Shown piece after piece: positions 25,709 through 31,549 of a DNA stretch of 64,000 bases; positions within the stretch are counted from its first letter, which is position 1, and each line of letters begins with the position of its first letter. Below the pieces are notes generated by a model. That model was not told the DNA's origin. It did no database searches and saw only the letters and a program-made list of their open reading frames with translations. Source of the DNA: Chrysophaeum taylorii (Eukaryota > Sar > Pelagophyceae > Pelagomonadales > Pelagomonadaceae); assembly GCA_029834535.1 (NCBI GenBank), contig JAQMWT010000359.1:134501-198500 (forward strand), read 5' to 3'. The translations under genes and the position numbers were made by a program.

Positions 25709-27033
25709 TTAAGCGTCGAACTCGTCGGGGACGTCGATGGAGGGGCACTTGCGCCTTTGGGCGTCGATTTTGATGAGGTCGAGGGGCGGCGAGTTGGGCC
25801 GGTCCACGAAAGTGGGCTTGGCGAGGCGCTTCATGTCGGCGTCGGTGAACTGGAGGACGGTTGCCAGGACGGGGACGAGGGAGGTGCGTTCCGAGGAGCC
25901 GCTGGGGAGGGAGAGGTAGTGGACGACGACGTTTTTTACGTACTCCACGTCGAGGTTGTCGCGGTGGAGACCTCTCCGGGCGTCGGCCAGGAGGGCCTTG
26001 AGTTTCGAGATTTTGTGGTGGAGGTCTGCAACCTCGGCTTCGCGCTTCTTGAGGCTGCGGTGCAGCTTGATGTTGACGATTTTCTGGGATCTGACCTCGT
26101 GGTGGACTCGGCCTTCCCTCTGGGCTTGCGCTTCGGCGATCTCGAGGATGCGGCGATGCGCGTGGCCGCCCGTCGCCGCCTCCCTCGCCATCTCGGCATT
26201 CACCGCCGACAACCGCGTGATTTCCGCGTCCTTTTCCACGACGATCTGGCGCGCGAGCGCCGACTTTCGAGCCTGCGCTTTTTTGGCTTTTAAAAAAAAA
26301 TCGACGGACTCACGTTTTCGAGGTCTAGACGGTGACGGAAATCGGCGAACTCGAGCGCCATCGCCTCGGCCCGCGGCACTTTTGTTGTTGCCGCGAGGGT
26401 CGCGATGCGCGCAGCCTGGAAAGCGTCGCGAGCGACGGTTTCGGCAAATACGATTCGCGTTTCCAGTTTCGCTTCGGCCAATTCTCGGCGAAGCTTCGCG
26501 TTGTCTTCGGCGAGTTCGCGGTTCTCCTTGGTCTTGAGGGCCGACTGGTTGTCGCGAACCGCCGATTCCGCCATAATTCGCGTCAATTGCGCTTCTTTTT
26601 CGTTCAACCGACCTTCCTTCTCTCGGAGCTCGATCTCCGGCTGCTTGGCCTTGTGCCGCAAAAACACCAGCTCCTCCTCGTGCTTGGCGCGCGCGGCCTC
26701 GAGCTCCTTCTGGAGGATCTCGCATCTCGCCTCTAACTCACGGTCGGCAGCGAGGCTCTCGGTGTCTACCTCGGGGTCCAACTTTTTCAGGTGTCGCTGC
26801 AGCGCGTTCCGCTTCTCCCGCTCCGCCTCGAGCTCCGTCTCCAACTTGGCGTTCCCCGCTTCCACCACCTTCAACCGCTTCGACAGCTTCATCGTCAGCT
26901 GGAGCAGATCCTCTCGCGATATCGACGGACCGACTGACGACGGACCGACTGACGACGGACCGACTGACGACGGACCGACTGACGACGGACCGACTGACGA
27001 CGGACCGACTGACGACGGACCGACTGACTCCAT
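25709..27033 (-). CDS. GRIP-domain golgin, 427 aa
   Basis: Exon 1 is 27033-26314, then a 41-nt intron 26313-26273 (GTGAGT donor, GCGCAG acceptor, phase 0), then exon 2 26272-25709 ending TAA. The N-terminus is seven copies of VGPSS coded by identical 15-bp units. Residues 40-340 form a long coiled coil rich in Glu/Lys/Arg/Ala. The C-terminus has NLDVEYVKNVVVHYLSLPSG, then RTSLVPVLATVLQFTDADM, the GRIP domain with its key Tyr, which in golgins binds ARL1-GTP at the trans-Golgi. It should act as a vesicle tether. Head-to-head with the hydrolase gene, 94 bp apart, with a TTAGGGTAA box between. Confidence 0.88.
26926..27030. repeat. 15-bp tandem repeat coding VGPSS
   Basis: Seven uninterrupted copies of GACTGACGACGGACC (plus strand) with essentially no differences, at the extreme N-terminus of the GRIP gene. 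Perfect identity implies recent expansion and likely length variation between individuals. Confidence 0.9.
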
Positions 27034-27127: not shown

Positions 27128-28039
27128 ATGAAACCCTCGTCGTCGGCGGAACTGGAAGAGAGGGCTGTGGCCGCGGTTCTCGGCGCGCTGGTCGGGGACG
27201 CCGCGGCCGTGCCGTGCCACTGGCACTACGCCCCTCACGAGCAGGGCGCCTTCTCCGAGGAGTGGATAAACCCGTTCTATCGCGTCGCGCTCGGCGCGAA
27301 CTCGTGTTACGGCGATCAGATTCGATGCGTTGCGGCGTCGATGGCGAGATGGGGCGAAGACCTCGAAGATCGGCTGCGGGACCGCTTTTTGGCGCCGGAC
27401 TATGCGGCCGCCGAGCCCGCGAAGCAGGCGTACGGCTACCGCGGGGACCAGAGGGCGCGTAGTACCCCGATCGACGGGCCTTGGCGCCACCGGACCGTAG
27501 ACCGTTTCCTCGCCGGCGCGATCGAGGACGACGACACGTCCGCCGACGCCCTGGTCCGCGCGATCCCTGCTGCCGCGGCCGCCGCGATTGCGGGGGAGCC
27601 CGCAGCGCCGATCGTAGACAAAGTCGTCGTCGCGACGCAGCGAAGCGTCGTCGCGCGCGAGCACGCGCGACTGATCGGTACTGCCCTAAGCGCTGTTATC
27701 CGAGGGATGTCGCCAGCCCAAGCCCTCGAGAATGTTGGGGATCTCGATGCGGATTGTGCGATCAACTGACACTTGCCTTCGAGCGCGATTTTGCCCGCGC
27801 TCCTCGCCTCGAATAACGACTCTTACGTCGACGGCGTCCAAGCCGCCATCCGGATGGGCGGGTGCTGCGCATCGCGCGCCGCCGTCGTTGGGGCCTTCCT
27901 CGCGGCGGCCTACGGAGGTATCCCAGATTCGTGGATTTCCAAGCTCCGAGACCCGATAGATCTTTCGCCACTCCTCGAAGCTGCCAAACGCCGTCGGTCG
28001 ACACATGACGGTGCTTCTTCTACTACTACGCCCGAGTAG
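27128..28039 (+). CDS. ADP-ribosylglycohydrolase / SelJ-like, in-frame TGA
   Basis: ATG at 27128. The frame meets TGA at 27767-27769 and then stays open in the same frame to TAG at 28039; read through, it is 303 aa, the usual length for the family. N-terminal part: AVLGALVGDAAAVPCHWHY and YGDQIR. C-terminal part: RMGGCCASRAAVVGAFLAAA YGG, like the J1-crystallin / SelJ branch (GGxxxSR in place of GGDxDS). The TGA lies in AIN-TGA-HLP, where relatives have Cys before x-L-P. This makes selenocysteine the natural reading. A SECIS-like fold lies at the 3' end. DraG-type enzymes remove ADP-ribose or are crystallins; substrate unknown here. The alternative is a pseudogene with one nonsense change; no intron that keeps frame removes the TGA. 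Confidence 0.75.
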
Positions 28040-28068
28040 GAGGAGCGCCCGACGCCGAAACAACCGAC
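27993..28068 (+). promoter_or_regulatory. SECIS-like RNA hairpin
   Basis: Hand-folded. Helix I GUCGGU (27993-27998) pairs with ACCGAC (28063-28068). After internal loops of 7 and 9 nt comes AUGAC (28005-28009) facing CGAC (28050-28053), which fits the SECIS quartet (UGA / GA sheared pairs). Helix II is 15 continuous pairs, 28010-28024 with 28035-28049, including G-U wobbles. The apical loop is 10 nt (28025-28034). Against it: no AA at the 5' side of the loop, helix II is longer than usual, and the TAG stop is inside the stem. Confidence 0.5.
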
Positions 28069-28071
28069 CAC

Positions 28072-28660
28072 GATTATTATTATTATTATTATTATTATTA
28101 TGGCGAAGAAGTAGTGTCTAAGTTGTTGTTGTTGTTCTTCGTGTGAGGTTACCTCTACGGCCCGGGCCGTCAGTGTATTATAATTCCAAGTAGAGTCTGC
28201 GCCGGCAGTAGCGCGCGAGTGGCTGGCTGCACCACGGTTTTTTTATCGTGGCCAATCCCGCCACTCTCGCAGCGACTATTATTATCGGGGAAAAGAGGAA
28301 ATGGAATGGCGGGTTGTGTCGCGGTGTGTCGACTAGCTGGTGGTCGTCTACTGCATCTTCCATTCCTTCCACTAGAGGGCTCGTCCATTTGGCGGCGCTA
28401 CCCCTCGGAAGTCTGGCTACTTGCTCCCTCAAGCGAGTATATTCAGCAGCAGCAGCAGCAGCAGCAGCCCTGGTTATAAATATATATTTATTTAGCATGA
28501 CGAGATTGCCCGTTTCCTCCGCACCCCTCGGCTCCGGGACGGATACACGCCCGATGACATGATCTCATTTCTCTCGGTCTCAGCTTTGTGTAAGAGCTGC
28601 GAGAGAGCAATAATAATCCAATTCAACTGAAACGGCGGCCGATTGAAGAAGAATGAATCA
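28072..28660. other. Spacer with microsatellites
   Basis: ATT repeat at 28072-28101, TTG repeat at about 28122-28136, GCA repeat at about 28446-28467. Short open frames arise from these repeats. It lies between the hydrolase 3' end and the RAP gene 5' end; no gene supported. Confidence 0.5.
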
Positions 28661-31549
28661 ATGAGGGTAAAGGTTGAGAGGAGATATACGCACTCAACGG
28701 ACCTCGTCGCTGGCGTCACGATGGATCGCCACGAAGAACAACGAAGTAGCCACGGCGACGATCGGAATTGGCGCGTCGACGAGCCACCGCCTCGCCGTCG
28801 ACAGAAGGTGGACTTTCGCCCGTGGCGCAACGAAAGCCCGCCGCGAGGAGGAAACTTGGAGACAACGACCTGGTCAACGCGACAGGAGGACTCGAACTAC
28901 CAAGAGCGGCACCGTCCCGGAAGAAGAGATGACTGGCGTCGCGCCAATCAGTCTCCAGCGAGACGAATCCCTGACGACGCATGCCGCGAAGACGAGAGAG
29001 GCGACTCTTTCTTGTCGCTAAAACGACGGCTATCCGGCGCTGACTCGCTCGGATCGCGAACAGCACGCGGGTCGCAGCGCCGCTGCGTCGAGGCACCGCG
29101 ATGGCAACAAATCATTTGGGGAAAGCAGATGACGGAACGCTGGGCGACGCCGGGGAGTATTCTCTCCCTCTTCGCGGCTCGAGGCGACGAATTCAGCGCT
29201 CGGAATTTGGCGACTGCCGCGCACCGCGTCGCCAAGTTCGGCGGCAAGAACCGTGACATCCAACGCGATCGCCGCGTGATTGCCCTCGCAGCTGCTTGTC
29301 GACGTTGCATCGTTGAGTTCGACGCGCAAGCGCTCGCCAACGCGGCCTGGGCGTTCGCGACGGTGCGCGTCGATGCACCCGACCTCTTCGCGGCGATCGC
29401 CGACGCGGCTCCTTCTCGATTGGGCGAATTCATATCGCAGAACTTCTCCAACACGGCGTGGGCCTTCGCGACGGCGGGCATTGAGGCACCTCACTTCTTT
29501 GCGGCGATCGCCGACGCGGCTATTTCGCGGCTCTGGGAATTCAATCCGCAAGACCTCGCCTGCACGGCGTGGGCCTTCGCGACGGCGCGCGTCGAGGCAC
29601 GTATGTTCTTCGCGGCGATTGCCGACGTGGCTCGTTCGCGGCTGGATGAGTTCAGCCCGCAGGGGCTTGCCAACACAGCGTGGGCCTTCGCGACGGCGCG
29701 CGTCGAGGCACCTACGCTCTACGCGGCAATCGCTCGCGCGGTTCCTTCGCGGCTGGGCGAGTTCAACGCGCAGGGGTTCGCCAACGTGGCGTGGGCCTTC
29801 GCGACGGCGCGCATCGAGGCACCTATGCTCTTCGCGGCAATCGCTGGCGCGGCGGCTTCTTCGCGGCTGCGCGAGTTCAACCCGCAGGGGCTTGCCAACA
29901 CGGCGTGGGCCTTCGCGACCGCGGGCGTCGAGGCGCCCGAACTTTTCGCGGCTATCGCTGGCGTGGCTCCTTCGCGGCTGGGCGAATTCAAACCGCAGGA
30001 GCTCGCCAACACGGCGTGGGCCTTCGCGACGGCGGGCATCGAGGCACCTCGCCTCTTTGCGGCGATCGCCGACGTGGCTCCTTCGCGGCTGGGCGAATTC
30101 AAACCGCAGCATCTCGCTAACACGGCGTGGGCCTTCGCGACGGCGGGCGTCGAGGCGCCCATGCTCTTCGCGGCAATCGCTGGCGCGGCCACGTCGCAGG
30201 TGAGCACGTTCAGTCCGCAGGACTTTGCGATCGCGGCGTGGGCCTTCGCGACGGCGGGCATCGAGGCACCGATGCTCTTCGCGGCAATCGCCGACGCGGC
30301 GTGTTCGCAGCTGGGGGAATTCAATCCGCAGGACTTCGCCAACACGGCGTGGGCGTTCGCTTCGTCGCGCATCGAGGCACCTCAACTCTTCGCGGCGATT
30401 GCCTCCGCGGCTCCGTCGCGGCTGGGCAAATTCAAGCCGCAGCATCTCGCGAACGCGGCGTGGGCCTTTGCTACGATGAACGTGAAGGCACCCGAGCTCT
30501 TCGCGGCGATTGCCTCCGAGGCTCTTTCGCGGCTGGGCGAATTCAAGCCGCAGCATCTCGCCAACACGGCGTGGGCCTTTGCTACGATGAACGTGAAGGC
30601 ACCCCAGCTCTTCGACGCGATTGCCCTGGCAGCCCCGTCGCTTCTGGACGAGTTCAACGCGCAAGGGCTCGCCAACACGGCGTGGGCCTTCGCTACGGCG
30701 GGCATCGAGGCACCTGAGCTCTTTGCGACGATCGACCGAGCGGTTTCTTCGCTGCTGTTGGAAGAGTTCGATCCGCAGAATCGCGCAAACACAGCGCGGG
30801 CTTTCGCGTCTACCGAGCCAGCGCCTCCTCGGTTCTTCCGCGCGGCCCCGTCGCTCCTGGGCGAATTCATTCCGCAGAATCTCGCCAACACAGCGTGGGC
30901 CTTCGCGTCTACGGGTATCGAGGCACCTCAGCTCTTCGACGCGATTGCCGTCGCCGCCCCTTCGCTGCTCGGCGGGTTCCATCCGCAGGATCTCGCCAAC
31001 ACGGCTTGGGCGTTCGCTTGCGTCGACTGGAAAAAAGACCCCGAGTTTTTTGCCAAGCTCGCCTGCTTTTCTGTGACAGAGCTGGACGCCCTCGATGATC
31101 GTGGCCTGTCCCAGCTCCATCTTGCTTCGTTGCACGCAACACTAGAATGGCCCGGCCGGAGCTTTCCGCTCTCGAACCATCAGCGGATACTCCGAGAAGC
31201 GAATCAACGTTGGAATCCAACACCGTCCCAGCTCCAACGCGACGTGGCGACCGCGCTCGACCGCGTTGGCTGGGCCTACGTCTTCGAGCACGTCACCGAA
31301 GAGGGATTGTCGCTCGACATGGCTCAACCCGACACCAAACGCGCGGTCGAAGTCGACGGGCCCTACCACTATCTCAAGAGAACGAGGGTTGAGAACGGTG
31401 CTACGCGCTTCAAGTCCCGATTGTTGCGGCGGCTTGGCTGGAACGTGGTCCACATTCCGTTTTTTGAGTGGGACGCTCTCGACAGCGAGCGGGAACAGGA
31501 TTCTTACCTCCGGGCCAGGCTGCTCCAACTCTCCATGCGTAACACCTAA
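28661..31549 (+). CDS. RAP-domain protein with 16 AWAFAT repeats, 962 aa
   Basis: ATG at 28661 (a second at 28721 is equally good). Residues 1-200 are Arg/Asp/Ser-rich and disordered. About 225-830: sixteen units of about 37 residues, of the form FNPQGLANTAWAFATAG, then EAPELFAAIADAAPSRLGE. Each is coded by a 111-nt direct repeat. C-terminus about 860-955: the RAP domain, KRAVEVDGPYHYLKRTRV, then KSRLLRRLGWNVVHIPFFEW. Such helical-repeat RAP proteins (FASTK, OPR types) bind and process RNA in mitochondria or plastids; no clear transit peptide is seen here. Repeat 14 is shortened. A decayed copy of the C-terminal part lies at 55.6-56.1 kb. Confidence 0.9.
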   Translation: MRVKVERRYTHSTDLVAGVTMDRHEEQRSSHGDDRNWRVDEPPPRRRQKVDFRPWRNESPPRGGNLETTTWSTRQEDSNYQERHRPGRRDDWRRANQSPARRIPDDACREDERGDSFLSLKRRLSGADSLGSRTARGSQRRCVEAPRWQQIIWGKQMTERWATPGSILSLFAARGDEFSARNLATAAHRVAKFGGKNRDIQRDRRVIALAAACRRCIVEFDAQALANAAWAFATVRVDAPDLFAAIADAAPSRLGEFISQNFSNTAWAFATAGIEAPHFFAAIADAAISRLWEFNPQDLACTAWAFATARVEARMFFAAIADVARSRLDEFSPQGLANTAWAFATARVEAPTLYAAIARAVPSRLGEFNAQGFANVAWAFATARIEAPMLFAAIAGAAASSRLREFNPQGLANTAWAFATAGVEAPELFAAIAGVAPSRLGEFKPQELANTAWAFATAGIEAPRLFAAIADVAPSRLGEFKPQHLANTAWAFATAGVEAPMLFAAIAGAATSQVSTFSPQDFAIAAWAFATAGIEAPMLFAAIADAACSQLGEFNPQDFANTAWAFASSRIEAPQLFAAIASAAPSRLGKFKPQHLANAAWAFATMNVKAPELFAAIASEALSRLGEFKPQHLANTAWAFATMNVKAPQLFDAIALAAPSLLDEFNAQGLANTAWAFATAGIEAPELFATIDRAVSSLLLEEFDPQNRANTARAFASTEPAPPRFFRAAPSLLGEFIPQNLANTAWAFASTGIEAPQLFDAIAVAAPSLLGGFHPQDLANTAWAFACVDWKKDPEFFAKLACFSVTELDALDDRGLSQLHLASLHATLEWPGRSFPLSNHQRILREANQRWNPTPSQLQRDVATALDRVGWAYVFEHVTEEGLSLDMAQPDTKRAVEVDGPYHYLKRTRVENGATRFKSRLLRRLGWNVVHIPFFEWDALDSEREQDSYLRARLLQLSMRNT

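Follow-up and report, generated by a model that had tools for sequence, protein, structure and literature searches.

A probable selenoprotein of the ADP-ribosylglycohydrolase superfamily in the pelagophyte Chrysophaeum taylorii

In the stretch of 64,000 nucleotides of C. taylorii DNA analysed here (the window), we identified a gene of the DraG/ARH fold with one in-frame TGA, which very probably encodes a selenoprotein lacking the acidic motifs of the fold; we put the probability of this reading at roughly 85 %. The UGA would be decoded as selenocysteine (Sec) by the eEFSec of the alga together with a Sec-tRNA carrying the anticodon UCA, and Sec would take the place of a Cys that is conserved in the family. 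A putative SECIS element at the 3′ end of the gene, belonging to the ATGAC...CGAC type seen elsewhere in this genome, would direct the decoding. The initial annotation had already proposed a selenoprotein, and this proposal is supported by the Cys column in the relatives, by the Sec apparatus encoded in the genome and, with the reservations given below, by the SECIS-like element. The coordinates of all features are collected in Table 1.

Table 1. Features of the candidate selenoprotein gene and its 3′ end (positions in the window)
Feature	Position	Strand	Remark
ORF, intron-free frame with one in-frame TGA, DraG/ARH fold	27128..28039	+	303 residues if the TGA is read through
Proposed selenocysteine codon TGA, residue 214	27767..27769	+	Cys in 81/82 relatives and in the paralogue of the same genome
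Supported coding part after the TGA, residues 215-275	27770..27952	+	profile match to residue 275; codon usage
C-terminal tail, coding status doubtful	27953..28036	+	no homology beyond chance; poor codon usage
+1-frame TAG, located 45 nt upstream of ATGAC	27957..27959	+	speculative alternative stop, conditional on a frame shift (small intron or assembly indel)
Candidate SECIS	27989..28072	+	hairpin with ATGAC...CGAC core as in control genes
Candidate SECIS, helix 1 (GTCGGT/ACCGAC)	27993-27998 / 28063-28068	+	
Candidate SECIS, quartet ATGAC	28005-28009	+	
Candidate SECIS, helix 2 (15 bp)	28010-28024 / 28035-28049	+	
Candidate SECIS, apical loop	28025-28034	+	
TAG closing the frame, within the 3′ arm of helix 2	28037..28039	+	
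Candidate SECIS, CGAC	28050-28053	+	

Reading frame and the conserved Cys column

The gene lies in a single frame made of 213 codons, the TGA, 89 further codons and the closing TAG. The whole protein matched the Pfam family ADP_ribosyl_GH (PF03747) with an E-value of 1e-16, and the pieces before and after the TGA matched the same family separately, with E-values of 9.1e-11 and 1.7e-7. As each piece alone is recognised as ADP_ribosyl_GH, the TGA interrupts a single gene. The candidate was left out of a profile of 39 relatives, which gave 38 bits for the half preceding the TGA and 44 bits for the half following it. The initial annotation had described the same frame on both sides of the TGA and an ORF reaching to 28039. 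The common frame and the homology across the TGA are both borne out by these matches, but the full extent of the ORF is not, as homology reaches only to residue 275.

Codon-usage scores favour the frame of the ORF over the two others both in the half before the TGA (0.151) and in positions 27770-27946 (0.193), and in the latter region the other two frames of the + strand have negative scores. Both supported halves are low in codon usage: the value of 0.151 is just below that of the lowest training gene (0.157), and the training maximum is 0.534.

The TGA stands in the context AIN-TGA-HLP. Relatives were collected using the paralogue from the same genome as the query (7996 candidates scored), and at least 82 are found among the matches listed, namely the entry of the paralogue itself (P0003) and 81 others. 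At the column of the TGA, 81 of these carry Cys and one carries Ser (P0054), in agreement with the Cys that had been supposed for the family at this site. Position C214 is one of six invariant columns in an alignment of 40 rows, which were picked by hand and do not include P0054. The paralogue (L006, protein entry P0003), which is 100 % identical to C. taylorii CTAYLR_007229, reads RSCALP at the site of the TGA and thus has Cys. The candidate protein shares 29 % identity with P0003 and 22-32 % with the 39 aligned relatives.

With the candidate protein itself as the query (7999 candidates scored, and 461 in a second search), only its own 213-residue entry appeared among the matches listed, so a TGA-bearing orthologue is not known. 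Searches of phage records and of viral contigs with the candidate protein recovered no relatives. In prokaryote contigs no relatives were recovered with one query, and two bacterial relatives were recovered with another. NCBIfam provided no name for either the candidate protein or the paralogue.

Regarding the neighbourhood of the gene, positions 26930-27030 of the window contain a head-to-tail repeat with a 15-base unit, the period of 15 being kept at 84 of 86 positions. The repeat is situated at the start of a leftward ORF (26290-27033). The next ORF downstream (28643-31549) has 968 residues, and judging by eye we take its start to resemble a RAP/octatricopeptide-type repeat protein.

Selenocysteine apparatus and the candidate SECIS element

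The genome of C. taylorii contains matches above the cut-off for a tRNA-Sec (60 bits, anticodon UCA, loop CTTCAAA), SepSecS (298 and 227 bits), SelD (273 bits) and the eEFSec-specific domain eEFSec_4th (71 and 37 bits). The Sec-tRNA that the initial annotation had suggested looking for is therefore present, and it is accompanied by SepSecS, SelD and eEFSec. ARAGORN called no tRNA at the tRNA-Sec locus, and the match for PSTK was weak (56 bits, far under the cut-off of 382). The SelD match L021 is located within an uninterrupted frame of 930 residues, roughly three times as long as the domain itself, and may represent a fusion.

In-frame TGA codons were present in three of five genome matches to Rdx, in two of three to GPx, in all three to Sep15/SelM and in two of seven to MsrA, one of the latter being clean (L026). 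The other one, the MsrA-like L027, carries one in-frame TGA and one TAG and looks like either a broken gene or a gene with an unrecognised intron.

The eight TGA-containing Rdx, GPx and Sep15 genes (L009, L010, L011, L013, L014, L016, L017 and L018) served as controls for the SECIS analysis. They share a SECIS type in which ATGAC is followed by a hairpin, with an apical CC in five of the eight, and then by [CT]GA. The descriptor derived from them, with length bounds of 22-45 nt, is satisfied by all eight source genes and by the candidate gene. The inner length of the candidate is 41 nt compared with 23-37 nt in the controls; the upper bound of 45 was chosen with this length already known, and a descriptor bounded to 23-37 nt rejects the candidate. 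As for the background, 200 kb from one other contig contained 296 ATGAC sites, counting both strands, of which 7 satisfied the descriptor; the window contained 113, of which 3 satisfied it, the candidate being one of the three (2 of the 112 others). These nine sites, out of 408 others spread over 528 kb, correspond to a chance expectation of about 0.006 matches per 360-nt zone around a stop.

The region 27983-28078 folds with a z-score of -3.45, none of 200 shuffled versions being as stable. The inner stem of the candidate SECIS reaches -23.2 kcal/mol, and not one of the 408 other ATGAC sites is at or below -20. In the candidate, the apical CC is found in the 3′ half of the loop, 22 nt downstream of ATGA, whereas the distance is 11-17 nt in the five controls that possess an apical CC (the other three have none); the rule for the apical position quoted in the available text of PMC2375036 is 10-13 nt. 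Moreover, the candidate element begins 35 nt upstream of the stop of the ORF, while those of the controls are situated 26-155 nt downstream of theirs, with ATGAC 26-46 nt past the stop in seven genes and 155 nt past it in L009. The search for a SECIS element, as suggested in the initial annotation, thus yielded a hairpin of the type used by the alga itself, but with a deviating length, CC position and overlap with the stop.

In L009, a SelW-type UGA gene, a slightly altered second copy of the last ~33 codons can be recognised by eye after the stop (L009:1741-1870). The accepted SECIS of this gene lies past the repeated end (+155 nt), and the end of the gene seems to have been duplicated in tandem.

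The candidate SECIS was listed by an initial hairpin scan. It was missed by a second scan demanding AA or CC 7-16 nt past the quartet, which recovered the element accepted later in only three of the eight controls (L013, L017 and L018). The held-out UGA MsrA gene L026 failed the 22-45 nt descriptor and passed once the lower bound was set to 18. None of ten TGA-less genes passed, nor did L027; since an ATGAC occurs in the zone of only two of these ten, they are a weak control. Using cmscan with Rfam, no SECIS was found near the candidate gene, and likewise none in the eight control genes at E-values up to 5, so the silence of Rfam at the candidate is uninformative. The model RF00031 had no match in the genome or in any of 14 control genomes, and hence says nothing either. 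MAFFT did not bring the control SECIS elements into alignment.

The end of the protein and other readings of the TGA

The C-terminal end of the protein is doubtful. Homology ends at residue 275 (nt 27952), and the residues that follow add 1.5 bits to the match with the profile built without the candidate. When the last 30 residues were shuffled, 26 of 30 versions scored as high as the real one or higher. The last 30 codons (27947-28036) have a codon score of -0.354, a value as low as which is seen in none of the 1749 training blocks of 30 codons. The ends of 15 control genes, several of which overlap training stretches, all score higher (minimum -0.123). As there is neither homology nor coding signal past residue 275, the stop at 28037-28039 is insecure. 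The AlphaFold model displays a helix at residues 280-298, which makes a translated tail possible.

A speculative alternative is a frame shift near 27950, due to an indel in the assembly or to a small intron, which would make the TAG at 27957-27959 the stop. The ATGAC would then be placed at +45 nt, inside the range of 26-46 nt seen in seven of the controls. We consider a SECIS in the ordinary 3′-UTR position likelier than a translated tail. In the second case the SECIS would straddle the real stop and its 5′ half would be translated, so that ribosomes completing the protein would unwind the element on which Sec insertion depends. We regard such an arrangement as rather unlikely, but feasible, since a SECIS inside the reading frame is tolerated by mammalian cells according to the available portion of PMC6769590. 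If true, the SECIS straddling the stop would act as an intrinsic limiter within a cellular gene.

The UGA could also be a plain stop that arose by nonsense mutation at the conserved Cys codon of a decaying gene, the function being kept by the paralogue L006. The existence of a Cys paralogue, the divergence of the candidate from it, codon scores that are low for the genome and the non-coding appearance of the end of the frame would all be in line with decay. However, with a Cys codon set at position 214, the ORF offers 82 single-base changes that create a stop codon, and only one of them falls at this codon. For 61 residues past the TGA, the frame remains open with homology preserved. Moreover, the organism possesses UGA selenoprotein genes and the locus a SECIS-like hairpin, and altogether we consider decay improbable. 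We give even less credit to an assembly or sequencing error concealing a TGC or TGT codon of an ordinary Cys protein. A single assembly was examined, and the doubtful end of the ORF hints at an indel nearby, but an error would by coincidence have to strike the Cys codon of all positions, in a genome that encodes Sec machinery and beside a SECIS-like hairpin, and of all the readings we find this one the hardest to believe.

A very improbable reading, in our opinion, is that the UGA acts as a stop and yields an N-terminal product of 213 residues, either alone or beside a minor read-through form. Eukaryotes often insert Sec with low efficiency, and the sole entry for this gene among the protein matches listed is its own 213-residue piece, both of which would be compatible with such a product. 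It would, however, lack the C-terminal helices of the predicted fold, and all 39 aligned relatives extend beyond the conserved Cys. Decoding of the UGA as Sec is thus the reading that we prefer.

Likely function and comparison with known proteins

The predicted model of the protein has an all-helical DraG/ARH fold. In ADP-ribosylhydrolases the stretches TDDT near the N terminus and GGDTD near the C terminus provide the metal ligands. These acidic motifs are absent from the candidate, which reads YGDQ and GGCCAS where the consensus of its relatives is YGEQ and GDTCS and where MJ1187, a protein of the DraG/ARH3 type, has TDDT and GGDTD. Given the replaced acidic motifs and a putative Sec at the position of the conserved Cys, the candidate is most likely a protein of selenol/thiol chemistry, perhaps with a redox role, or a structural relative, and not a Mg-dependent ADP-ribosylhydrolase.

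The candidate would add a selenoprotein to those of pelagophytes. The literature searched contained no report of a selenoprotein in Chrysophaeum, and the term 'seleno' does not occur in the available text of the genome paper (PMC10366177). Gene prediction would probably cut such a gene at the UGA, as suggested by the length of 213 residues of the existing entry. If our reading is correct, Sec and Cys forms of one fold occur in the same genome, so that the choice of Sec over Cys in an ARH relative of non-catalytic appearance is directly testable. As a by-product, the analysis revealed a form of SECIS shared by the C. taylorii control genes and missed by Rfam.

The Cys-type, stramenopile-type ADP-ribosylglycohydrolases (P0003-P0084, including CTAYLR_007229) resemble the candidate in the Pfam family, in the Cys/Sec column and in the shared YG-[ED] and S-R positions. 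They differ from it in the motif GGCCASR, which is GDTCSR in their consensus, and a shorter middle region is a further difference.

SelJ is a known selenoprotein of the ADP-ribosylglycohydrolase superfamily and is found in sea urchin. Among vertebrates it is restricted to fishes, as stated in the available part of PMC3316567. In algae, several SELENOJ selenoproteins, one of them with two Sec, were published together with Cys homologues in 2020, according to the accessible sections of PMC7539508. The view of the initial annotation that an algal SelJ-type protein would widen the family is outdated by this report, and the candidate adds a member to a known family and not a new kind of selenoprotein. 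With its match to PF03747 and its TGA at the Cys column, the candidate corresponds to SELENOJ in the sense of a superfamily member with a Sec codon. It may be either SELENOJ proper or the product of a separate change from Cys to Sec within the Cys family of the paralogue. SELENOJ/SelJ and the candidate are alike in their affiliation to the ADP-ribosylglycohydrolase superfamily and, if the UGA is decoded as we propose, in carrying Sec in place of Cys.
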